DNA of 32,722 bases from positions 1 to 32,722 of the IMG/VR virus record IMGVR_UViG_3300047550_000959. The stretch is one strand, 5' to 3'. The DNA is from a virus. The position numbers and the translations under genes were made by a program. Below the pieces are notes generated by a model. The model had not been told where the DNA came from. It searched no databases and was given only the letters and a program-made list of their open reading frames with translations. Of this stretch, positions 308 to 28,127 are shown piece by piece (positions within the stretch are counted from its first letter, which is position 1; each line of letters opens with the position of its first letter).

Positions 308-567
308 AATCAAGACAGCAAATGATCTACGAGGAGATGTGCTATCAGTTGGGGAAGGTCGTAACTGCGCCTGAACATGAATACATTGATGACAATGGCG
401 TTGATGATTCAGAGGTGGTTAACGAGACCAATGTGAGATTGGTCTTGGGTTCGTTGACTTCAACACTTGTTAAGTGTGCGCTGGTGTATGGCGTGTCGCT
501 TGAGAGTGTATTAGTCAATGTTGGTATTGGGTACAAAGACTACGAGAGGGAGATGAAAGATGAGTAA
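304..567 (+). CDS. Hypothetical phage protein, 87 residues
   Basis: No family recognised. The product is acidic in its first half (a run of Asp and Glu near residues 25-37), followed by a more hydrophobic part near residues 50-80 that looks helical. The start overlaps the stop of the preceding microprotein by ATGA, and the 3' end overlaps the start of the metallopeptidase/VWA gene by 8 bp, so it sits in the middle of a coupled set. The placement suggests co-expression with the VWA protein. Any functional link is inference. Confidence 0.65.
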   Translation: MKSRQQMIYEEMCYQLGKVVTAPEHEYIDDNGVDDSEVVNETNVRLVLGSLTSTLVKCALVYGVSLESVLVNVGIGYKDYEREMKDE

Positions 568-1843
568 ACAAGAAACGCGCGTGAAGAAGGCGCACATTGC
601 GCTGATGAAACATCCTGAGACGGCACTGTACTCAGGCGTGATGCTGATGGGCAAGACCGAGGTCGTGGAGGAAGGATGTCCTACGGCATACACCGATGGC
701 GTGAACAAAGTCTATGGTCGCAAGTTCTTAGAGACCGTGGACTCCGAACCCAAGGTGCGTGGCTTGGTGTTGCATGAGAACCTTCATGTGGCATTGAAGC
801 AGTTGCCAAGAGGTAAGGATATGTTTGAGGAGAACCGCAAGCTCGCAAACATTGCCGCTGACATGGTAGTCAACAACATCATCGAGAACATCAAAGGCAC
901 GATCAATGGCTCGACAGAGCGAATCGTTGCGTTGCCTGATGGTGCGGTGTATGACCCCATGTTTGAAAACTGGTCAATGCGTGAGGTGTACAACTATCTC
1001 AAGCAACACTGCAAAGGTGGCAAGGGTGGCAAAGGCGATAAGGGTGGACAGAAAAGTAACGACCCAGCCAATGCTAGGTCACAAAGTAACGACGATGACG
1101 ATGGGGACATCATCGAGATCAATGGCAAGCAGTATGACATTTCTAATGCAGACGAGCATGACCTTGACTCCCTGAAAGATCTAACGCATGGTGAGGTCAA
1201 AGAGATCAACGATGCAATCGACAAAGCGTTGCGTGAGGGTGGGATGTTGGCTGGTCGCATGGGTGCGAAGATACCGAGATCAATCTCTGACTTGCTTGAA
1301 CCCAAGGTCGATTGGCGTGATGCGCTGAGAGACTTTGTGTCGAGCGCCATCAAAGGCAAGGATGAATTCACATGGCGTAAGCTGAACAAGCGACAGCTCG
1401 TCAATGATCTTTATTTGCCAAGCATGGAGAACGAGACGATCGGGGAGTTGGTCGTTGCCATTGACACATCAGGGTCGATCGGTGGTCAGCAAATCACCGA
1501 GTTTGCGACAGAACTGGTCTCAATCTGCGATCTGTGTTCGCCTGACCGTGTGCGTGTTTTGTGGTGGGATACCGATGTGCATGGTGAGCAAATCTTTGAG
1601 AATGACTACAAAGGCATGGCTCAGATGCTCAAGCCTGTGGGCGGTGGTGGCACTATGGTGTCGTGTGTCAACGAGTACATCAACAAAGAGAAGATCAATG
1701 CGGAGTGCGTGATCGTGTTCACTGACGGGTATGTTGAGAGCGACATCACATGGACTATTCATAGCCCAACCCTGTGGATGGTGACTCAGAACAAATCGTT
1801 CGAACCGCCTGTGGGCGTGAAGGTGAAGTTCGGTGACGACTAA
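560..1843 (+). CDS. Putative metallopeptidase / VWA-like domain protein (DUF2201 type)
   Basis: A 427-residue two-domain protein. The N-terminal domain carries a zincin-like HENLH motif (H72, E73, H76). A Gly/Lys-rich linker follows (about 152-165), then an Asp-rich stretch. The C-terminal domain is a von Willebrand A-like fold with a MIDAS signature: D302-x-S304-x-S306, a Thr in a Gly-rich loop (T365) and D389 in FTDG. This arrangement is known in the DUF2201 family, whose members often work with a MoxR-type AAA+ ATPase; no such ATPase is in the window, but it could lie just upstream of position 1. The start is supported by GGGAG upstream. A palindrome flanked by direct repeats sits in the linker at 1053-1093. 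Substrate and role in infection are unknown; a chaperone or peptidase-like job on host or phage complexes is inferred. Confidence 0.85.
   Translation: MSKQETRVKKAHIALMKHPETALYSGVMLMGKTEVVEEGCPTAYTDGVNKVYGRKFLETVDSEPKVRGLVLHENLHVALKQLPRGKDMFEENRKLANIAADMVVNNIIENIKGTINGSTERIVALPDGAVYDPMFENWSMREVYNYLKQHCKGGKGGKGDKGGQKSNDPANARSQSNDDDDGDIIEINGKQYDISNADEHDLDSLKDLTHGEVKEINDAIDKALREGGMLAGRMGAKIPRSISDLLEPKVDWRDALRDFVSSAIKGKDEFTWRKLNKRQLVNDLYLPSMENETIGELVVAIDTSGSIGGQQITEFATELVSICDLCSPDRVRVLWWDTDVHGEQIFENDYKGMAQMLKPVGGGGTMVSCVNEYINKEKINAECVIVFTDGYVESDITWTIHSPTLWMVTQNKSFEPPVGVKVKFGDD
1053..1093. repeat. Palindromic element copy A with 11-bp flanking direct repeats
   Basis: The dyad is GACCCAGC-CAAT-GCTAGGTC (1061-1080), with one mismatched position in the stem. 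The 11-mer AAAGTAACGAC occurs at 1053-1063 and again at 1083-1093, exactly 30 bp apart, so the unit equals ten codons and keeps the reading frame. It lies in the Ser/Asn/Asp-rich linker of the VWA protein. Related copies are at 3277-3306 and 5835-5872. Confidence 0.7.
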
Positions 1844-18202: not shown

Positions 18203-18386
18203 ACCGGAGTGGATATTTCCGTTTGACGGCATGGAGGTGGGGGATAGCTTTTTTATCCCTACCCTCCGCTTCGCTGAGATGATCTACGCCATCGACTGCG
18301 GGTCGAAACGTGCTGGCATCAAAGTGAAATCCTACATCGCCACCAAGGACAACCACATCGGGGTGCGCACATGGCGCATCCGTTAA
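18186..18386 (+). CDS. Small conserved-type phage protein, 66 residues
   Basis: ATG 18186 overlaps the end of the primase gene by 17 bp; a TTG one codon earlier is also possible. The pattern V-G-D-S-F-F-I-P (18-25), S-K-R-A-G-I-K-V (40-47) and a final V-R-T-W-R-I matches small unnamed proteins common in phage replication regions. Probably a compact beta-rich fold. Its TAA stop shares the palindrome TTAA with the stop of the minus-strand 2237-residue gene. Confidence 0.75.
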   Translation: MIQIPEPEWIFPFDGMEVGDSFFIPTLRFAEMIYAIDCGSKRAGIKVKSYIATKDNHIGVRTWRIR

Positions 18387-21300
18387 GGCTCGACGCCATA
18401 CACCTTGAGTCGCTCAATAATCTCATGCTTGAGCATGTTCTGTTGCAGGATGTTTAACCGCAGCAGTTCTTGCTTGTCGATGGGTGGTATCTCCATCGCG
18501 CGTATTTCATTCGCCCGCTTGCGAATCTTGTCAAGCCGTGCGACTTGCTGGTTGTAAATGCTGATTGCATTCTCAACGCCGGGGTGTTCGGCTCTAAACT
18601 CAATTGCTGTTGCCCTGTTGGTCTTGTTCAACGTCTTGAGACGGGTGTCCAAGTCTTTGATCTTCTCTTGTATAGAGCTGAACTCTCTTGCATCGACGTT
18701 TGACTTTGACCCAAAGAAAGATCCAAGAAGCGCCAGATCAGTCTTTGGATTAAAAGCTTTCTCACCCTTGGACAGATCAACCCAGTTGTAAGACATCTCA
18801 CCGATGCGGGCAATGCCGTCGATGTAGCTATTTGTCAGGAAGTACGCAGTGTTGGGGGATACATCCCATGCACCTTGGGTCTTGTTGTACAGCCATGCGG
18901 TGAAGTCTTTGTAGACCTCTGGGATTCTGTCTCCGCCTGTGAACGCATCACCAAACCTACGCATTGTGGCGCTGTTGATTGCCTGCCCAATACCGTTCAT
19001 GTTCATGATGTATTCGGAGATGGGGCGCAAAACTGAAGGCACGACCGAGTCAAATGCCCACTTCAACGGCTGCTCAGAGACTGGAATTTTTGATATCGGT
19101 ATAGGTAGGAACGAGTCTGTCAGGATGGAGCCAGCGATGTTACCCAAGCCATCTTTGATAGAAGTCTGCCCGTGATACATGCCGCCAATCTGTGCGCCAA
19201 TCGCTGGGAACGCGCCCAAACCAAATCCCCAAGGAATCTGAATGATGATGTCCCTGCCCAACCCCAAGCTGTCCGGCATATGAAACCGCGCATTGCGAGT
19301 CCACTGTTGCATGTTGTCAGTACGCACGCTGTTGCGCTTCCACTCATCGTCAGGAGCCATCATCATTGCCATCCAGTAGGTGGCATACCCAGCGCCCATC
19401 AACGTGGCAATCATGATCTGAGAGTTGGTTCTCAGCTGTTTGAAGTTCTTTATGTATTCTTCTGCGGCGGCTGGGTCGTTCTGCACAGCGGCTGGCATGT
19501 GGCGTTTTGCAACGTCCAACGTGGTGAAGGCAGGTGCGGCGGTCTCAATTGCTCGTGTGGCACTGATGGCTGACGGACGGATGAACATGTACAACGCGCC
19601 AAGCTCACGTCCGTATGTACCGACCTTCTCAAAGTTGGTCAGGTTCTTTGTTTCAGCGGCAGCTTGTGTGCAAGCAGCTTGATACGCACTTTTCTCGTCC
19701 ATGTTCTTTTCGAGATTCTTTTTGTAGTAATACTCTCTGAACATGCCATACGCAGCCGTGCGGCTGGTCAATTCAAACATGCTGCTCCAAGTGTCCAGCA
19801 GGTTGTCGATGCTTTCCTTGGTGTCAGCAATCCAACTGTTCTTCTCCAGCTTCTTCAACTTTTCTGTGTTGTTCTTTATGGAAAAGCTCTCGATGTATGC
19901 GGTCTTGCCACCGTACTTGATCAGCTCCAACATGTCACGAACAAACGGATCTTTCTTGGCGCTGTTAGCCATGCGCTGTTGGCTTTGCTCATCGCCCTTC
20001 TCATTGAGAAGTGCAATCTCCCATGCCTTGCCAAGACCGTTTTGAAGCACACGAGTAGCCACCAAGCCCACATATTTAGGCGCAGCCAACGGCCCCATCA
20101 TGCCACCACCCATGTTCCAAGCGTTGGTGAACATGTCAGTCACGAAGTTCTTTGGCGCAAAGTTGATGTTGTATCGTGTGTGCTGCGCACCCACCCAGCC
20201 TGTGATGGCGTTTGCCAGATCAACAAGTGGCTTTTCATGTTTAAACGCGTAGCGTATCGCCTCCAATATATGTTCTTCGCCGACCTGCAAAACGTCGATT
20301 GAACCATCGTCGTTGTAGTGGAATATGTTTGCCCCACCTTTGAACTGAGACATGTCGGTTTTTTCACGCTCAGCGAACGGGATATGCGCACGCACATCGC
20401 CCAAAATCACGCCCGTGCCATTAGGGTTCTTTTCACTCTTTGGCAGGGCATTCTTGATAGATTGTGTCAAGTTACGACGCCCAGCGCGGTCTGCACTGCG
20501 GTACGCATCTGACATGACTTGAAGTAACGGGTTCGTAGATACAGCAAAACGTCCGTGTGTTTTGTTCTCGACCTCTTGCAGCGACACGCCGTGGCTGATT
20601 GCCTCTGGGTCTACAAAATAATCTTTCTCTGTTGGCCTGCTTGCGTTGTCTTTATTGTTCTTGAATGGCAGGTAATACTGGTAGTCAAACATGCCGGTGA
20701 TGTTTGAGACAGGGAATGACCAGTAATGACCGATCTGATTCAGTTCTTTTGTGGCATCCGTTAAATTCTTCAATGACGCAAATATTTTGTTTACCGCTTC
20801 TTGCTGTTTCTCGGGCATTGCGGCAAATTGTTCTTGGCGAAGCTTGACCTCGTCCATGTTGATACCTAGCGCAGTGTAGGTATCGCTGTTCATGTCAGTC
20901 AGTAATTTAGCTTGCTCAGCATTTTTGGGCTTACCAATTTTTGGATTTGGCGAATAGCCATAGGCGTCGTTGTGGTTCTCGGCAAGGTTTGTCAGTTCTG
21001 CCCACAGTTTTTTCTTCTGTGCATCAGTCAGTTCTACTTGGTCGATCAACCCGGGCGTGCCTGTCGCACGGTCACCCAGAATTTGAGTACGACGTTCAGC
21101 AGCACTGATCATCTTGCCGCCGACATTAAAAGTTTTATCGGTTTTCAAGGGAACCATCTGCACAAACAACGCTTTGCGGCGCTCTGGCTCATGGAACATT
21201 TCAGCCAACATGTGGATGGTTGCGCTGGCCTCTTTGAATGACTCACCAGTCAATTTCATCCAGTCCGCAAAAGCAGCTTTGAAGTCAGTGAGCGGCTGGT

Positions 21301-24300
21301 CTAAGTAGTGCGTCAGGAATTGCAGTTTTTCACCAGTCGACAGCGCCAGTTGTTCAGCGACGTTGTTAAACGAATCGTCCAAGTCCCTGATAATTTTTCC
21401 GCCAAGATCATTCCTACGCTCACGAGAAACAATCTCATAGGTTGTGTCTACAAATGCAGTGGCTTTATTTCTCCACCCTTGTACGGTGAATAGATCTTTG
21501 ACTGCTTTGGCTAACTTGGACGGTGGGTATTCAGCGTCGCTGAGTTCATATGCCTTGCGAAGCTCAGGGTCAGCCAAGCCACCCTCACGGGTCTTCTTAC
21601 CTTCTGGTATTTTCTTGGGTTCTTTTTTCTTCGCCGACAGGTCAGATAAATAAATCGGCTCAGTAGGCACAGACAAGATGTCTTCAAATGCCGCGCTTAA
21701 CTCCATCATAAAGTTGTTGGATATCATCTGGCCCGGCTTGTACCCAACGATGCCTGCAATGGCCTTTTTGAACTCTGTCCACATCGACTTCTTGCCGGGC
21801 ATACGGTCAAGGATCTTGTCTTTACGCAAACCAAAAGCTACGTCTTGGGCGTACTCAACGCCCTCACCATGCAAATCTACTTGGAAAATTTTGTCAGTCA
21901 TGGCATAAGCCAAAAACTCATACGGATTTTCGTACGCGTTTGGATGCCTACTTTCCAAAGTACCTTTTGTGCTTTTCATGATTGCCAAAATTTGCTCAAC
22001 CGCTTTGATCTGATATTCAGTCAATAGTTTCTTTTGGCCTGTCAAAAAAAGATTCATTACTCGCACGGTGCCAGCGTGTACTACCTCGTGCAAGATTGTT
22101 GTATATGTCATGCCTTCAGGCGTTACATAAATAGTATCTTTGTCTGCTTTATATATAGCCAGATCATTGTTGGGTAAGCTATCTACGTACTCAATCTTTG
22201 TTTTTAGCCCAAGGTTCGCTACCAACTTAGCAACTTGTCGATAAATTTTTTGATGTGATACATTCGCATCTTTTAGTTTTTCAGCAATACCTTCCAACAA
22301 ACCATTGAGGTTATTGTCTTTAATTAACTGTATGAGATTATTAGATAACCGTTCTGACGCTGTCGGCATTGTGCCGGATGTCCTGCTTTGTTTGTCCCGC
22401 AGTTTTTGGTAATACTCTTGCAGTTTTATAGATTTCTGACGAACTTCGTCTTGTATTTTTTGGATATTTTTATTCTGGGCTTCTTTAGCCTCAGAAGACA
22501 TACCTTTATTTTCGTTGTTAATCTGCTGTGCAACCTCAGCAAAACCAACATCTTGTTGTAAACCAGAATTGTTTGCTACTGTCCGCAGATATGCAGCTTT
22601 TGCGGCGCTGGATAAATCTCTCCAAGCAGGGAATTTGAACCCGTACACTTTTCCTGTAGCGTCGCGGTTGTCCTCGTAGCCTTTGATAAGACGTTGTTCT
22701 CGGCGGTCGAGAGTACCCTCACCTTCGCGGCTTTCAATACCTTGTTGACGCCGGAAGTCCAAAAGCGCTTTGGCAGCAGCATTGTGTTCTTCGACGGTGT
22801 TGTTGCGAATGTTGTCGAGGTAAACTTCTTTTTCAGCAGGTGTGATTTCTTTATCCCAGTTAGGGAGTTTATTTTTAGTTCCGCCGTACGTCTGTAATTC
22901 TTTCTCAGCCGTAGCAATTTCAGCAGCCAAATCTTCTGCGCGTCGCGTTACTTCATTTGCCTGCTCACCTAGCTTGGCAATAGCTTTTTCATCACCTTTT
23001 AATTTGGCGGCTTCGAGTTGGTCATCAATACGCTCAGACGCAAGTTCAGCTTCTTTACTATCTTTGTACAGTTGCTTCAGTTTTTCAGACAAACCAGTAC
23101 GGGCTTGATTGTGTTCATCAGCTGCTCTGTTTATTTCTTCTCGTGTAGCGTTGTATTCTTCAACAACAGCGTCACTAACTTTTATATTGGGTAACGACTC
23201 ACCACGGGATTCTTCGAGCAGGCGCAGACGTTCTTGTTCAGCTTGTTTTTCATATTTATCCGCTAACCGCATAGCATCTTCGACACTTGCGCCTCTTGGA
23301 GCTGCGGGTGTTGTATCTTGTGCGGTTGCAACAGCGCCCCTACCTTGGTCAATTAACTTTTGTACGCCAACGCGTTTGGCAGGTAAGCCGTCTGACGAAG
23401 GTTTAAATAGTTCTACCCCGTGCTTTTCTTCAAGTCGGTTGAGGAAGTTAAGTTTGTTGGTGATGAGTTTGTTAGCCGCTCCGTCCTCGATCAGGTTTAA
23501 AACCTCATCACGGCGTCTGCTGATTTCATCTTGTGTCTCTTGGCTCAGTGAACCGAGTTCGACGCGTGCGCCACCCACAGTTCCGCCGCCACTTGGAGGG
23601 ACAGTTGTTCCAGCTCCTCCCAAATCTCCGGTGGTATCGACTGGAGCTGCGGGGGCATTGGCTGTAGTATCGGCTGTTGCATCCACGCTAGGGCCTGCTC
23701 CACCTGCTGTAGTGTCAGTTTCACTTGGCGCTCCTTTTTTACGGCGCTTCTTTGTTTCTGTAGGTGCAGGAGGTACGGGCGGTACTTCTTCCTGTTTGAC
23801 CCGTGTATCTGCATCTATCAACGCAAGCTGTTCTGCATCCGCTTGCGGCGCTTTTGTTTTTCTTTCTTCGTCGTATGTTGTGAACAGATTCTTTAAATCT
23901 TGCCCGCCAACAGCTTTATCAGCAATCTCTTGCTTGGCTTTGTAAGCCTCACGCCCGCCACCCACTGCACCCATGCCAAGACCAGCCAGACCTTCCAATG
24001 TGGCTTGGCTGACAACGCCCTGCATGGTGGGCACATCAAACCCTTGGCGTTGCAGCGCAATGTTCTGCGCCATTTGTTCTTGTCCGCCTTGTGGAAACTC
24101 AGTCGCAAATTCCTTCGCTGCTGTGATTGCACCTTGTTTGACAACACCTCGTTCAGCAGCTTTCTTGGTTTCTTCTTCCGTCGCTGCTTTAACCGCAGCT
24201 TTGGCAGCTTCTCTACCCGTCGCCTGCGTGGCAACCGTTGCGGCGGCCTCTTCTGCGGAGACTCGCCCAACAATATCTTTAGCCAACTGCCGTGCAAGTA

Positions 24301-25096
24301 CAGGCTCCACGCCTGTTCTGGCTCCAACCGCGCCAATTCCTGCACCAATCAAAATTTGGTCTAAGTTTTTGCCGCCGTATTCTTGTGCTTTGACTGCCAC
24401 AGCTTCAATCTGCTCAGGCGTCATCTTGGTTTTTTCAGTCAAGACTTGTTTGGTGGCGTCGTAGATTGCACTTTTAACAGTACCCGCACCCATGACTGCG
24501 CCTGTACCTAACCCAACCCCCGTAGCTACTATCGGAGCGCCGCCAGTCAATGTGGTCAGCAGGCCAGCAGCAATTGCAGGTGCAGACGTACCCAAGGCAT
24601 TTGCCATCACATCAACAGGTGCAACAGACATGGCTTTAACACCAGCCACAATCTGGTCGAGGACACCTTTGTCCTCGGCTTCCTTCATGATGCGCGCAAT
24701 CTCGCGGCTATCCTTTTTGGACTGCGCACTGTACAAGGCCGCTATGTCGTCCTCAACTCCGCGAAGAGTTTTAGACACTGACGAGTCTGCGCCAAAAGCA
24801 TCCGCTACCATGCGCACGCCTGTGACAAGACCTGCTCCTACTTTGAGAGGCACGTCAGCGACTTGGCGCAACATGCTCTGATCTTCTGGTCTTGGTTCAG
24901 GTGTCTTTACAGGCGCTGCTGGCGCTGCTGGCGCTACCACTGGTTTGACATTTAAGGGCATCCACTGATTTTTTATCAGCCCAAACTTTTCCCCTGTGTC
25001 GGGGTTACTAGCAGTCTTGGAAAAAGGAACCCACTCGTTGTCAACCAACGCAAAGCGTTCCCCTGTATCAGGATTGGTAGCAGTTTGAAGTGCCAT
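18383..25096 (-). CDS. Giant ejection-type virion protein with zincin motif (large polyvalent protein)
   Basis: 2237 residues, last gene of the minus-strand virion block, where podoviruses carry their largest internal (ejected) protein. In order: two 23-residue N-terminal repeats (N8 and N31, each N-P-D-T-G-E-x-F); a Gly/Ala-rich hydrophobic region (about 160-260); Pro/Thr-rich linkers (about 430-510); coiled coils (about 570-800); a zincin motif H1003-E-V-V-H1007; an LPD38-like segment near 1643 (N-F-A-P-K-N-F-V-T-D); a hydrophobic segment near 1900. No lysozyme or transglycosylase motif is obvious. Probably packaged and delivered with the DNA, perhaps protecting it or cutting host proteins (inference). 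ATG lies 2 bases after the previous stop, with no clear ribosome-binding site. Confidence 0.85.
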   Translation of the reverse strand: MALQTATNPDTGERFALVDNEWVPFSKTASNPDTGEKFGLIKNQWMPLNVKPVVAPAAPAAPVKTPEPRPEDQSMLRQVADVPLKVGAGLVTGVRMVADAFGADSSVSKTLRGVEDDIAALYSAQSKKDSREIARIMKEAEDKGVLDQIVAGVKAMSVAPVDVMANALGTSAPAIAAGLLTTLTGGAPIVATGVGLGTGAVMGAGTVKSAIYDATKQVLTEKTKMTPEQIEAVAVKAQEYGGKNLDQILIGAGIGAVGARTGVEPVLARQLAKDIVGRVSAEEAAATVATQATGREAAKAAVKAATEEETKKAAERGVVKQGAITAAKEFATEFPQGGQEQMAQNIALQRQGFDVPTMQGVVSQATLEGLAGLGMGAVGGGREAYKAKQEIADKAVGGQDLKNLFTTYDEERKTKAPQADAEQLALIDADTRVKQEEVPPVPPAPTETKKRRKKGAPSETDTTAGGAGPSVDATADTTANAPAAPVDTTGDLGGAGTTVPPSGGGTVGGARVELGSLSQETQDEISRRRDEVLNLIEDGAANKLITNKLNFLNRLEEKHGVELFKPSSDGLPAKRVGVQKLIDQGRGAVATAQDTTPAAPRGASVEDAMRLADKYEKQAEQERLRLLEESRGESLPNIKVSDAVVEEYNATREEINRAADEHNQARTGLSEKLKQLYKDSKEAELASERIDDQLEAAKLKGDEKAIAKLGEQANEVTRRAEDLAAEIATAEKELQTYGGTKNKLPNWDKEITPAEKEVYLDNIRNNTVEEHNAAAKALLDFRRQQGIESREGEGTLDRREQRLIKGYEDNRDATGKVYGFKFPAWRDLSSAAKAAYLRTVANNSGLQQDVGFAEVAQQINNENKGMSSEAKEAQNKNIQKIQDEVRQKSIKLQEYYQKLRDKQSRTSGTMPTASERLSNNLIQLIKDNNLNGLLEGIAEKLKDANVSHQKIYRQVAKLVANLGLKTKIEYVDSLPNNDLAIYKADKDTIYVTPEGMTYTTILHEVVHAGTVRVMNLFLTGQKKLLTEYQIKAVEQILAIMKSTKGTLESRHPNAYENPYEFLAYAMTDKIFQVDLHGEGVEYAQDVAFGLRKDKILDRMPGKKSMWTEFKKAIAGIVGYKPGQMISNNFMMELSAAFEDILSVPTEPIYLSDLSAKKKEPKKIPEGKKTREGGLADPELRKAYELSDAEYPPSKLAKAVKDLFTVQGWRNKATAFVDTTYEIVSRERRNDLGGKIIRDLDDSFNNVAEQLALSTGEKLQFLTHYLDQPLTDFKAAFADWMKLTGESFKEASATIHMLAEMFHEPERRKALFVQMVPLKTDKTFNVGGKMISAAERRTQILGDRATGTPGLIDQVELTDAQKKKLWAELTNLAENHNDAYGYSPNPKIGKPKNAEQAKLLTDMNSDTYTALGINMDEVKLRQEQFAAMPEKQQEAVNKIFASLKNLTDATKELNQIGHYWSFPVSNITGMFDYQYYLPFKNNKDNASRPTEKDYFVDPEAISHGVSLQEVENKTHGRFAVSTNPLLQVMSDAYRSADRAGRRNLTQSIKNALPKSEKNPNGTGVILGDVRAHIPFAEREKTDMSQFKGGANIFHYNDDGSIDVLQVGEEHILEAIRYAFKHEKPLVDLANAITGWVGAQHTRYNINFAPKNFVTDMFTNAWNMGGGMMGPLAAPKYVGLVATRVLQNGLGKAWEIALLNEKGDEQSQQRMANSAKKDPFVRDMLELIKYGGKTAYIESFSIKNNTEKLKKLEKNSWIADTKESIDNLLDTWSSMFELTSRTAAYGMFREYYYKKNLEKNMDEKSAYQAACTQAAAETKNLTNFEKVGTYGRELGALYMFIRPSAISATRAIETAAPAFTTLDVAKRHMPAAVQNDPAAAEEYIKNFKQLRTNSQIMIATLMGAGYATYWMAMMMAPDDEWKRNSVRTDNMQQWTRNARFHMPDSLGLGRDIIIQIPWGFGLGAFPAIGAQIGGMYHGQTSIKDGLGNIAGSILTDSFLPIPISKIPVSEQPLKWAFDSVVPSVLRPISEYIMNMNGIGQAINSATMRRFGDAFTGGDRIPEVYKDFTAWLYNKTQGAWDVSPNTAYFLTNSYIDGIARIGEMSYNWVDLSKGEKAFNPKTDLALLGSFFGSKSNVDAREFSSIQEKIKDLDTRLKTLNKTNRATAIEFRAEHPGVENAISIYNQQVARLDKIRKRANEIRAMEIPPIDKQELLRLNILQQNMLKHEIIERLKVYGVEP

Positions 25097-25098
25097 GT

Positions 25099-27723
25099 TT
25101 AATCCAATTTAGCGCCGGGTGGTAAAGGAGGCATACCCTTGTGAGCATTATCACCTTTTACTCTTGGTTTGTTTCCGGGCGCGGGCTGTGCCGCAGGTGG
25201 AGTCATGCCAATCGCTTGTTTTACGTAATCTAGTGTGGTATTAGCCGTTTCTCTCATTTTTTGATGGCCACTACGTATATTTTCAAGTTCAGCTTTAGCG
25301 GCTGCAACTCTTGATTTCACTACATCGCTATCTCCAGTCAAACTTGCATCTGCCACCAGAGCTTGATATTTAGGGTCAGCTAATTGATTGGCAATCTTTG
25401 CCTCCACGTTGGCTTGCAGTTGAGTGGCAGCGTTCAATTTAGCTAGTTGATTGGCGTCATTCTGTGCTTGACGTGACCCAGCCATAGCAGCTGCACGGAT
25501 TTTTTCCGCTTCCAACGTAGTTTTATTGGCGGAATCTTGCAGGTCTTTGCGCATGTTTTCAATACGAATGTCTCTTGCTTCCTCACGTTGGCCTCGACGA
25601 ATATCGGCTGCTTCTGCGCGCTTGTCTGCACGTTCGCCTTGGGCTTCTTTTTCTTGAAGTTCAAGAAGTTTCAAAGTAGTTTGTTGGGTTCTTTCTGCCC
25701 ATTTATTTTTAACCGCAGTGGCAGCCTCGTAATCGCCTTTTTGTTCAAGACGTGTTGCCTCGTCAAGTCCAGCAATAGACTTGTCAATCTCCATGCGGAT
25801 TTTCTTGACTTCCTTCTCATCAGAGATAAGCGTAGGAATTGTTTCTTTGACTGAAGCCAAACCAGCTGCCAATGTTGGGCCGGGCGTTGAACCCCAACGT
25901 CCAAAGAATTCAGCCAGACGCAGGTATCGTGTACGCTTGGCTTCATCTTCTGCGTTGGCGCGTTCCGCCATCAGTTTTGCACGGTAGTCTTGATTTGGCG
26001 GTTCAATACCAGCAGCTTTTTTGGCAGCTTGTATTTCAGCTATGCGATCTTCTATAGGCACTGCCGCTTCTTTTGCAACATCAGCTTGATATGCCTTCAT
26101 CGCAGGAGTGAGGTCTTTTGCGCTTTGAATTGCATCAGCTACAGTCTGTGGCGCAGGGGGCGGTGTCTGTGCTTGCGCAATACCCTGTTCACGGATAGGC
26201 GGCGCAGGGGGAGCAGGCTCTGTTGGGTTATCAGATACCACACCGCTTGGACGAGGTGCTGCCATCAGGATGCCTTGCGCACGACGAGACTCCTCATCAT
26301 CCGCAGGGGCAATGACAGCATTTTTGCTTCCCTTGGCAAACGCCACAATACCGCCACCAGCCATGCCGGGGCCTTTCTCCATTTGACGCTCACGCAAGAT
26401 GCGCTGAGCCATGCGTCTGATAGAAGGACTTGTTGACTCTCTCAACTGACGTTGCAGGGCTGCATCGTCCATATTCTCAAGGTCGCTTGCAACCTCGCCG
26501 CCCACGTCGTAAGACATGATGCCTGATTTTTTAAACTCTTTTGGTAGGCCGCCGCTTGCGCCTTTTGGAGGGTTAAATGCGTTGTACAACGACGCACCCG
26601 CGCCCGCCGCGCCGATAGCTTGAGTAAGCGCGTTTGGTGCAGCCGCATACTGCTGTGTAGTCTGAGCCTGCATTGGCAAGCCACGCAACATATTGGACAT
26701 CGTGCCCAGCTGCATGAGTGGGTACTGCTGCGCATTGGCATAGTCTTGCATGGCTTGATTGATTTTTTGCTGCTCCAACGCTTGCTGCTGTGCGCCAATA
26801 GTATTTTGCAAGTTGTAGATGCCTTGCTGCGACGCAAGCTGTTGCGCGCCTAGCCCTGCCAGTTGGCCCGCGCCTTGCATTGCTTGGCCGTAACCAGCCT
26901 GCTGCGCCCCAATACCTGCGCCGACACCAGCCATGCCAGCTTGAAGCCCTTGCAGTCCTAGCCCTGCGCCATACTGTTGCGCCTGTTGCGCTTGTTGGAA
27001 CGCTGACTGAAGCCCGGTGGCTTGGATGTCGCCTTTTTGAAGTGCCAGATTACGTGCAGCCTCCGCATCGGTGATTGCTTGTCGTGACCCACCAAACGCC
27101 CCAGCCCGTACAGCTTGTGCGTTACGTTGAGTGCCTGCAATATCTGCTTGCCGCTGAGCTTCACGCTGCTGAACATCCACGACGTTTTGCATGTAGGGAG
27201 ACATATACGCCTGCATGGCAGCTGGGTTTGTTGCTTGTTGCGCATAGCGATTGCCTGCACCGGCAGCTTCGTACCCTAAACCTGCTAGGCCAACACCTTG
27301 CCCAGCTGTACCCAGCTGCCCCATGATTCCTTGACCAGTAAGCCCGATTGCTTGACCGTACTGTTCTGGTGTTTGCATGTTTGCAATGCCTGTTTGGGCT
27401 TGCTGCTGTAATGGCTGAAACCCTGCAACGGCTTTACCGGGGTCGTAGGACAGTTGATTACCTTGCTCGTCGTATGTACCCCCGTACGCTCGATATGGTT
27501 GGAAGCCAGTTATATTGAAGCCGCCATCTTCAGTGGGAGTGCCTTGGAACAACTGCTTTTGCGTAGCGCCAAGCATGGTCTCGACATACGGTTTTGCATA
27601 CTCAGGGATGTTTGTTTGATATGACGTGGTTTGCGTAGGTTGCCCACCGCCACCGCCACCGCCTAAATACATAACAAAATCTTGACCTGTCAACCAATCA
27701 AACAAACTTTTGACGATGCTCAT
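25099..27723 (-). CDS. Gln/Ala-rich internal virion (ejection-type) protein, 874 residues
   Basis: N-terminus has a seven-glycine run (G21-G27). Residues about 150-350 are rich in Gln, Ala and Gly with a repeated amphipathic look and contain G-A-F-G-G-S-R-Q-A, a pattern common in podovirus internal or tail-associated proteins. A G-G-G-I-V-A-F motif occurs near 460, and the C-terminal third is a long charged coiled coil. The start overlaps the GNAT-like gene stop (ATGA) with GAGGA upstream. Its place just before the giant protein suggests both form the inner core or the DNA-delivery channel. This is a positional inference. Confidence 0.8.
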   Translation of the reverse strand: MSIVKSLFDWLTGQDFVMYLGGGGGGGQPTQTTSYQTNIPEYAKPYVETMLGATQKQLFQGTPTEDGGFNITGFQPYRAYGGTYDEQGNQLSYDPGKAVAGFQPLQQQAQTGIANMQTPEQYGQAIGLTGQGIMGQLGTAGQGVGLAGLGYEAAGAGNRYAQQATNPAAMQAYMSPYMQNVVDVQQREAQRQADIAGTQRNAQAVRAGAFGGSRQAITDAEAARNLALQKGDIQATGLQSAFQQAQQAQQYGAGLGLQGLQAGMAGVGAGIGAQQAGYGQAMQGAGQLAGLGAQQLASQQGIYNLQNTIGAQQQALEQQKINQAMQDYANAQQYPLMQLGTMSNMLRGLPMQAQTTQQYAAAPNALTQAIGAAGAGASLYNAFNPPKGASGGLPKEFKKSGIMSYDVGGEVASDLENMDDAALQRQLRESTSPSIRRMAQRILRERQMEKGPGMAGGGIVAFAKGSKNAVIAPADDEESRRAQGILMAAPRPSGVVSDNPTEPAPPAPPIREQGIAQAQTPPPAPQTVADAIQSAKDLTPAMKAYQADVAKEAAVPIEDRIAEIQAAKKAAGIEPPNQDYRAKLMAERANAEDEAKRTRYLRLAEFFGRWGSTPGPTLAAGLASVKETIPTLISDEKEVKKIRMEIDKSIAGLDEATRLEQKGDYEAATAVKNKWAERTQQTTLKLLELQEKEAQGERADKRAEAADIRRGQREEARDIRIENMRKDLQDSANKTTLEAEKIRAAAMAGSRQAQNDANQLAKLNAATQLQANVEAKIANQLADPKYQALVADASLTGDSDVVKSRVAAAKAELENIRSGHQKMRETANTTLDYVKQAIGMTPPAAQPAPGNKPRVKGDNAHKGMPPLPPGAKLD

Positions 27724-28127
27724 AATTTAATCCTCATCACTTGGTGGGTGTTTTCCATACCCATCTTTTCGTACATCTGTACCAACGTGCCTCTTGCCCA
27801 GCACTGAGCTTTTGTTGCACCAAAGCTGCGCATCCATTCTTTTGCAGCTTCGAATACATGGTCTCTGACAATCCCTTTACCACCCATCAAATTGACATGC
27901 GCCACGCGCTCGCGGGGGTAGTCCATGAACTCAACAGTAACGGCTCCCGTTATGCCTGCATCAGGTTCTTCCCAAACCAAAAGAAATACCCGCCCTGTGC
28001 GCACTGAGTATTCAACTTGCTCAATCGTAATCATCTCTGGTTCAAGATCAATCGCCTTCTGGAGTAAAGGCGCAGCGATAGGCCACACACGCGGCAATTC
28101 ACTGGGATGAACTTGATAGAGTGGCAT
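27720..28127 (-). CDS. GNAT-like protein in the virion block, 135 residues
   Basis: Pattern of a small Gcn5-type acetyltransferase fold: N-terminal helix, V-F-L-L-V-W-E strand, G-A-V-T-V-E-F strand, then V-N-L-M-G-G-K-G-I-V (an acetyl-CoA-loop-like stretch) and a C-terminal M-Y-E-K-M-G-M-E segment typical of GNAT ends. Similar proteins sit beside internal virion genes in many podoviruses. Whether it still transfers acetyl groups or is only structural is open. Start overlaps the previous stop as TAATG. Confidence 0.7.
   Translation of the reverse strand: MPLYQVHPSELPRVWPIAAPLLQKAIDLEPEMITIEQVEYSVRTGRVFLLVWEEPDAGITGAVTVEFMDYPRERVAHVNLMGGKGIVRDHVFEAAKEWMRSFGATKAQCWARGTLVQMYEKMGMENTHQVMRIKL

Follow-up and report, generated by a model that had tools for sequence, protein, structure and literature searches.

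The window analysed here is the whole of the 32,722-base IMG/VR virus record IMGVR_UViG_3300047550_000959, which is probably a fragment of a genome. Two gene arms converge near 18.3 kb, the left arm on the plus strand (replication) and the right arm on the minus strand (virion), and the last gene of the virion operon encodes a protein of 2237 amino acids. The features of this gene and of its upstream neighbour are as follows (residue numbers refer to the 2237-aa protein):

18383..25096, minus strand: predicted polyvalent, ejection-type protein of 2237 aa, ORF open from ATG to stop
18707..20299, minus strand: conserved C-terminal module, residues 1600-2130, with LPD38 inside (alignment A3; model pLDDT 80.0)
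18776..19318, minus strand: LPD38 (PF18857), residues 1927-2107 (68.6 bits against a curated Pfam gathering cut-off of 27)
21629..22279, minus strand: zincin-like metallopeptidase domain, residues 940-1156 (alignment A4; AlphaFold2 pLDDT 87.4, pTM 0.86)
21917..21919, minus strand: Glu1060, candidate third zinc ligand (invariant, 36/36 in A4)
22076..22090, minus strand: HEVVH, residues 1003-1007, the sole HExxH of the protein
24950..25018, minus strand: N-terminal repeat 2, residues 27-49 (KTASNPDTGEKFGLIKNQWMPLN), from self-comparison
25019..25087, minus strand: N-terminal repeat 1, residues 4-26 (QTATNPDTGERFALVDNEWVPFS), from self-comparison
25099..27723, minus strand: upstream ejection-like protein of 874 aa (phrog_4287 'DNA ejection protein', E 5.4e-11)
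25102..25131, minus strand: C-terminal tail PPLPPGAKLD of the 874-aa protein, proposed partner of the repeats (from class matching)

Further upstream, the virion operon encodes a 657-aa protein matching the virion structural family phrog_3287 (E 1.5e-53) and then small proteins. Among the 62 relatives with an intact 5' end, a homologue of the 874-aa protein was present in 60 (a count which, with the low-complexity filter off, may be slightly inflated), and the convergent 948-aa gene (DUF927) was matched in 61. The 2237-aa gene therefore stands where podophage ejection proteins are encoded, as the last gene(s) of the tail and ejection module, with the order kept in relatives; like polyvalent proteins, it is also encoded with late virion genes. 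A small protein inside the virion operon (27720-28127, minus strand) is weakly acetyltransferase-like (phrog_1249, E 0.0017) and was matched in 32 of the 62 loci. On the replication side, positions 560-1843 (plus strand) encode a second metallopeptidase-like protein with a DUF2201_N putative metallopeptidase domain and a VWA-like domain. No tRNA and no Rfam family were found in the window.

An earlier note on this DNA had described a 2237-residue protein with HEVVH near residue 1003, an LPD38-like segment, two 23-residue N-terminal repeats and hydrophobic segments, and all but the last were recovered as listed above. With regard to strongly hydrophobic segments, no 19-residue window reaches a Kyte-Doolittle mean of 1.6, although the N-terminal region 80-200 is Gly/Ala-rich. 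The zincin domain and LPD38 give the protein the several unrelated domains, at least one of them enzymatic, that mark polyvalent proteins, one enzymatic domain being recognised. Over the whole protein no family match to an N4-type RNA polymerase domain was found in Pfam or PHROGs, similarity to phrog_2206 being confined to the zincin part, and no helicase or methyltransferase domains of the DarB-like kind were matched in Pfam. Searched as a whole against the PDB (phmmer), the protein gave a single chance-level match (E 0.88). A tblastn search of annotated phages at E 1e-5 listed no match and one at E<=10 listed 17 records, including a C-terminal match in Pasteurella phage Pmp11 (E 3e-7); the two runs retained different matches, Pmp11 being listed only in the latter. 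Judging from these sequence searches, the protein belongs to a large group which is hardly represented among annotated phages. In Pmp11 itself (L004, 760-7731), a 2324-aa ORF carrying ART-PolyVal, MuF_C, HELAH and LPD38 is annotated merely as misc_feature.

The C-terminal module is about 530 residues long, and at E<=0.001 its model has 41 viral counterparts, a good number of them named large polyvalent proteins. LPD38 has been listed as a phage-only domain (Iyer et al., PMC5512222). Comparison of the LPD38 model with solved structures (VIA) gave nothing at Z>=5, and the LPD38 profile gave chance-level matches only against PDB sequences. A search of bacterial genomes for the C-terminal part of the family returned 64 pattern stretches, none of them a relative.

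Structure prediction for the central part of the protein, which the earlier note had proposed as a check on a zincin fold and a third zinc ligand, bore out both expectations at the level of a model. In the AlphaFold2 model and the alignment H1003, E1004 and H1007 share one helix, and the candidate ligand E1060 lies on a later conserved helix. The model runs H2-22, E28-31, E41-44, E49-52, H59-79 (H64 E65 H68) and H119-128 (E121), that is, the HExxH helix, the later Glu helix and the three-stranded sheet with flanking helices that define a zincin. VIA comparison placed it closest to a lethal-factor-type zincin (Z 6.8) and PPEP-3 (6.3), the lethal-factor and PPEP zincins spanning Z 6.8-6.0, and also matched residues 2149-2368 of the N4 virion RNA polymerase (vRNAP; Z 5.5, 133 residues, rmsd 4.3). 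All these Z values are below 8 and are alone insufficient for a zincin claim; the matched chain and its location are in agreement with the sequence profile. That profile, built from the window and 35 viral contigs that are 19-61% identical to it (36 sequences in all, none of them from the weakly matching annotated phages), matched PDB chain 9sfn_G 'Internal virion protein' at E 2.4e-13, N4 vRNAP chains at about 2e-4 and the PhiM1 gp48 ejection protein (8vb2) at E 9.5e-4, and the zincin domain alone matched phrog_2206 'virion RNA polymerase' at E 7.7e-9. Foldseek comparison of the model with the PDB gave no match at E<=0.001. Among annotated phages, 16 records match weakly (tblastn, E 0.09-7), each overlapping residue 1003, and include phiKMV-group internal core proteins, a DarB-like giant, crAss-like proteins and others; five aligned sequences have in common HExxHA, then N-x-x-E-[FL]-x-A, and a T-x-x-x-F-Q motif.

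HExxH was found in 81/81 of a first set of relatives, a figure which is biased because these had been found through the motif itself, and the search was therefore repeated with the C-terminal half only. This gave 80 loci, eight of which end before the zincin domain, leaving 72 informative; 19 of the 80 contigs were shared with the first set and 61 were new, including all eight cut-off loci. In 72/72 informative relatives a single HExxH precedes the C-terminal match by 544-787 residues and is followed downstream by EF-x-[AGS]; near-duplicates were kept in this set, and its C-terminal profile was built from the first, motif-found set. For the new informative loci alone, conservation of HExxH was 53/53, and by composition about 0.019 HExxH would be expected per protein. 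On the evidence of this conservation and of the model, HEVVH is a real zincin motif, and the fold is predicted to match zincins and the C1 domain of the N4 vRNAP.

On account of this fold match, the 2237-aa protein is assigned, by its sequence and model, to the phage-type polyvalent proteins, a kind which was defined by Iyer et al. (2017; PMC5512222), who found the zincin in N4 vRNAP. In common with these, it is very long, multidomain and encoded near late genes, and has a metallopeptidase (MPTase) domain and LPD38; it differs in having just one recognisable enzymatic domain and in its N-terminal tag paired to the upstream tail, which was not found in the consulted text of PMC5512222. N4 vRNAP (gp50), whose C1 domain at about 2124-2375 carries HExxH (PMC12633501; PDB 9pnr, 9pnt), is likewise a giant ejected protein with a similar zincin domain; it has an RNA polymerase domain, whereas the window protein is without one. 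The same HExxH zincin and ejection-module position are found in phiKF77 gp41 (NC_012418; phiKMV group; PDB 9sfn_G) and PhiM1 gp48 (8vb2), although these proteins are shorter (1263-1337 aa) and the phiKF77 protein is without LPD38 by Pfam. A term search of the main text of the PhiM1 ejectosome paper (PMC11440229) found protease, peptidase, metallo and HExxH absent; 8vb2 and 9sfn_G are solved ejection-type proteins bearing an HExxH zincin domain. DarB-like giants carry a zincin (Serratia phage Parlo) or LPD38 (Burkholderia phage JC1 gp69) at the end of the virion module, but they bear helicase and methyltransferase-type domains, which the window protein lacks. JC1 gp69 has been detected in virions by mass spectrometry (PMC9144972). 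Among plasmids, the phiKF77 zincin domain was matched solely by a hypothetical protein of an Acinetobacter plasmid which is possibly a phage-plasmid (NZ_CP110465.1, 41212-41526; E 5e-4).

The 2237-aa protein most likely forms part of the virion and leaves it together with the genome. Delivery into the host, as the earlier note had suggested, is plausible by analogy, being supported by the position of the gene as last in the ejection module and by relatives (N4 vRNAP, JC1 gp69 and, by its name, 9sfn_G).

The two 23-residue repeats at the N-terminus are identical at 13/23 positions and give a self-match score of 88, compared with at most 29 in 30 shuffles. The N-termini of relatives likewise carry short units of differing types (tags), frequently repeated. 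A self-match score of at least 40 was found in 33 of 73 N-terminal 80-residue windows (dereplicated proteins), compared with 71/1981 other windows and 8/2190 shuffles. Tag and zincin-region similarity are nearly independent (correlation 0.14 over 2628 pairs): L123 and L136 are 94% alike in the zincin region and 15% in the tag, and L011 and L091 are 97% alike in the tag and 41% in the zincin region. Around the start codon, L007 and L111 share a DNA island of 90% identity from -22 to +139, with adjoining similarity not detected; the island shared by L009 and L010 (-35 to +157) is 86.5% identical. The islands are bounded near the upstream tail and the tag. As judged from these islands, the N-terminus of the relatives is a swapped cassette of about 160-190 bp.

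Against Pfam the tag peptides gave nothing above cut-off, and against PHROGs one clear match was found, of the L144 tag to the start of phrog_10691 (E 3.6e-9), the rest being at 0.02 or weaker. In annotated phages the L107-type tag had no match and the L140-type tag two weak matches. No tags were found on other ORFs within the flanks examined, 12 off-target matches being truncated or broken copies of the tagged gene.

The tag type was found to match the C-terminal tail class of the preceding ejection protein. In the window NPDTG..W occurs twice, with the tail PPLPPGAKLD; the same type of pairing is seen in L007, L008, L009, L010, L020, L071 and L111, and about ten further pairings exist in the family. 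By class matching, the partner tail was present in 49/55 family proteins, compared with a mean of 5.8 and a maximum of 15 in 10,000 shuffles, the tail patterns having been written post hoc, after the tails were seen. A tag class could be given to 55/71 family proteins and not to 16/71, and 6/55 were mismatched, for example L095; L066 (upstream ORF not recovered) and one more protein had been dropped from the 73 for this count and for the partial test. Elsewhere in the analysis, two microvirus matches (36% of the query, E 5) were dropped.

A first simple class test was set aside in favour of a partial one, as nearly every segment showed excess similarity in it; it is uninformative because related phages share tags. 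In the partial matrix test, which controls for four other regions, the tag correlated with the last 30 residues of the upstream protein at 0.489, with preceding upstream segments at 0.215-0.250 and with the upstream N-terminus at -0.056, against permutation maxima of 0.08-0.14; some correlation, of about 0.22, extends over the whole C-terminal part of the upstream protein, and the tag's own neighbour in the same protein (residues 46-90) gave 0.173. Tail and tag classes are thus matched beyond relatedness. A docking chain along the operon was considered and rejected, the next junction upstream having no tail-specific excess (0.452 vs. 0.429). A ribosome-binding constraint on the tail is unlikely, since the same residues are encoded by varied codons.

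Tag and tail classes and the prediction were recorded before annotated phages were inspected. In these, the gene before the same tag carried the predicted tail in the first 7/7 cases, and ten more records were added later. The IRxxPQY tag was found with a [N]DPLG[LI]R tail in 8/8 records checked (out of 21 listed, many of the remaining ones being near-duplicates), the PDGKTY tag with an aromatic-x(1-2)-hydrophobic tail in 8/8 distinct records (W in five and Y/F in three, the Y/F form being looser than the predicted class), and the NPxTG..W tag with a PP-G tail in 1/1 (Pan3). With the ends removed, the bodies of 14 upstream and 11 tagged proteins showed no relation to those of the window (BLAST, E 1e-3), a few of these annotated phages being related among themselves. 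The background among 2064 ORFs, true cases included, was 46 W.V-type and 17 DPLGLR-type tails. In Ruegeria phage 45A6 (L176) a DPLGLR tail stands directly before the tag gene in a different frame than the annotated upstream gene, and the sequence indicates that this upstream gene has a shifted frame. In P22 (L184, 10069-13313; genes 20 and 16), gp16 has a PDGT-type tag at its start and GIKFTVE forms the end of gp20, a pair which by eye resembles that of L062.

The joint reading to which we give somewhat better than even weight is that of a virion-packed, ejected polyvalent protein with a zincin, an LPD38 module and N-terminal tags docking on the upstream tail. The two tag units would have as their binding partner the proline-rich C-terminus of the preceding ejection protein, the repeats possibly forming small Trp-containing hairpins which grip it, and the 2237-aa giant would thereby be attached to the 874-aa protein inside the head or on the way out. 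Judging from their sequences, other pair classes seem to set a mini-domain against a short motif, the roles sometimes being reversed. An interchangeable docking pair of this sort may keep adjacent ejection proteins together or in order, at either of these stages. The repeats had been put down in the earlier note as a packaging signal; a matched pair with the tail of the upstream protein explains them better, and we infer that repeats and tail are cognate docking peptides rather than a generic signal.

As to the peptidase, its most likely role would be to process ejection proteins during assembly or entry, whether the giant itself or its neighbours; it could cut the docked neighbour or itself, with a host target coming second. 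Self-processing, processing after entry and host targets have all been offered as alternatives for the MPTase (Iyer et al., PMC5512222). Pro-Pro sites as self-cleavage sites for a PPEP-like peptidase were considered (451 observed vs. 348 expected) and judged to reflect composition, the sites lying mostly in linkers 300-800 residues before HExxH. That the zincin is mainly an effector which cuts a host protein of defence or envelope after entry is a tentative and rather improbable alternative. Zincins do serve as effectors in conflict systems (PMC5512222), and other polyvalent proteins carry effector-type domains, such as the ADP-ribosyltransferase in Pmp11. However, 72/72 informative relatives have the domain, always at the same gene position, and unrelated phages have it in their ejection proteins; such constancy is more in keeping with a core role in delivery than with a variable effector. 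The earlier note's suggestion of a defence or surface protein as substrate found no result here that points that way.

Linkage without function and a common third receptor are the main rivals to docking. Tail and tag genes are separated by a stop-to-ATG gap of -4 to 15 nt, and joint inheritance could mimic pairing because the two ends adjoin on the DNA. Recombination might then simply move one junction segment whose ends have no common function, as the junction-spanning islands would allow, yet we consider this unlikely, given that the pairs are matched at the protein level despite varied codons, that they persist on unrelated flanking proteins, where unselected linkage should decay, and that the tag follows the tail more closely than it does the residues next to it in its own protein. 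It is unlikely, too, that tag and tail match since both fit a single receptor, a third virion part (portal, scaffold or tail) recognising them as packaging or exit signals. The tags do resemble address tags, lying at the N-terminus or a few residues inside it on last-in-module ejection-type genes of unrelated phages; against this, the gene preceding the upstream one shows no such tail effect and other ORFs in the flanks carry no tags, though the flanks stop short of some head genes. The weakest alternative, a catalytically dead domain kept for encapsidation, appears quite improbable, since sequences of 19-61% identity all keep HExxH and the third-ligand Glu, as do 72/72 relatives, and dead enzymes usually lose these, even though N4 vRNAP is packaged unprocessed while its MPTase region is needed for encapsidation (PMC5512222).

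The preferred reading, cognate docking, has parallels in working principle. In modular polyketide synthases, the C-terminus of one protein and the N-terminus of the next form matched docking classes at gene junctions; the proteins and the process are different, and the likeness is one of working principle only. The capsid targeting sequence of T4 is an N-terminal peptide on internal proteins packed in the head, whereas the peptides of this family are many-classed, often duplicated and matched to a neighbour's tail. A literature search found no paper on paired tags, most subscription papers being outside its reach. The unexpected finding here is the matching of N-terminal tags to the upstream tail, polyvalent proteins with zincin and LPD38 being already described in the published text consulted.

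More generally, short-tailed phages may join neighbouring ejection proteins through about a dozen matched, exchangeable terminal docking pairs, in each of which the C-terminal tail of one protein would meet an N-terminal tag, in many cases a tandem duplicate, of the protein that follows, a proposal for and against which we see the case as evenly balanced. Since junction cassettes carry the pairs from phage to phage and the proteins that bear them are otherwise unrelated, the pairs would serve as a plug-and-socket code. Such a code would bear on the selection, ordering and threading of giant ejection proteins in short-tailed phages; for N4, it has been asked how a 3500-residue enzyme gets through a narrow tail (PMC12633501). 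P22 gp20 and gp16 would provide a tractable model for the pairing. The zincin is tied to ejection proteins of several unrelated phage groups, and peptidase activity may therefore be a common part of ejection, a general component rather than a special weapon. If the matched tag and tail code is true, ordering would be testable with peptides, ejected proteins that work together would have a sequence handle, and different ejected enzymes, including the zincin giant, would be able to fit different ejection machines.
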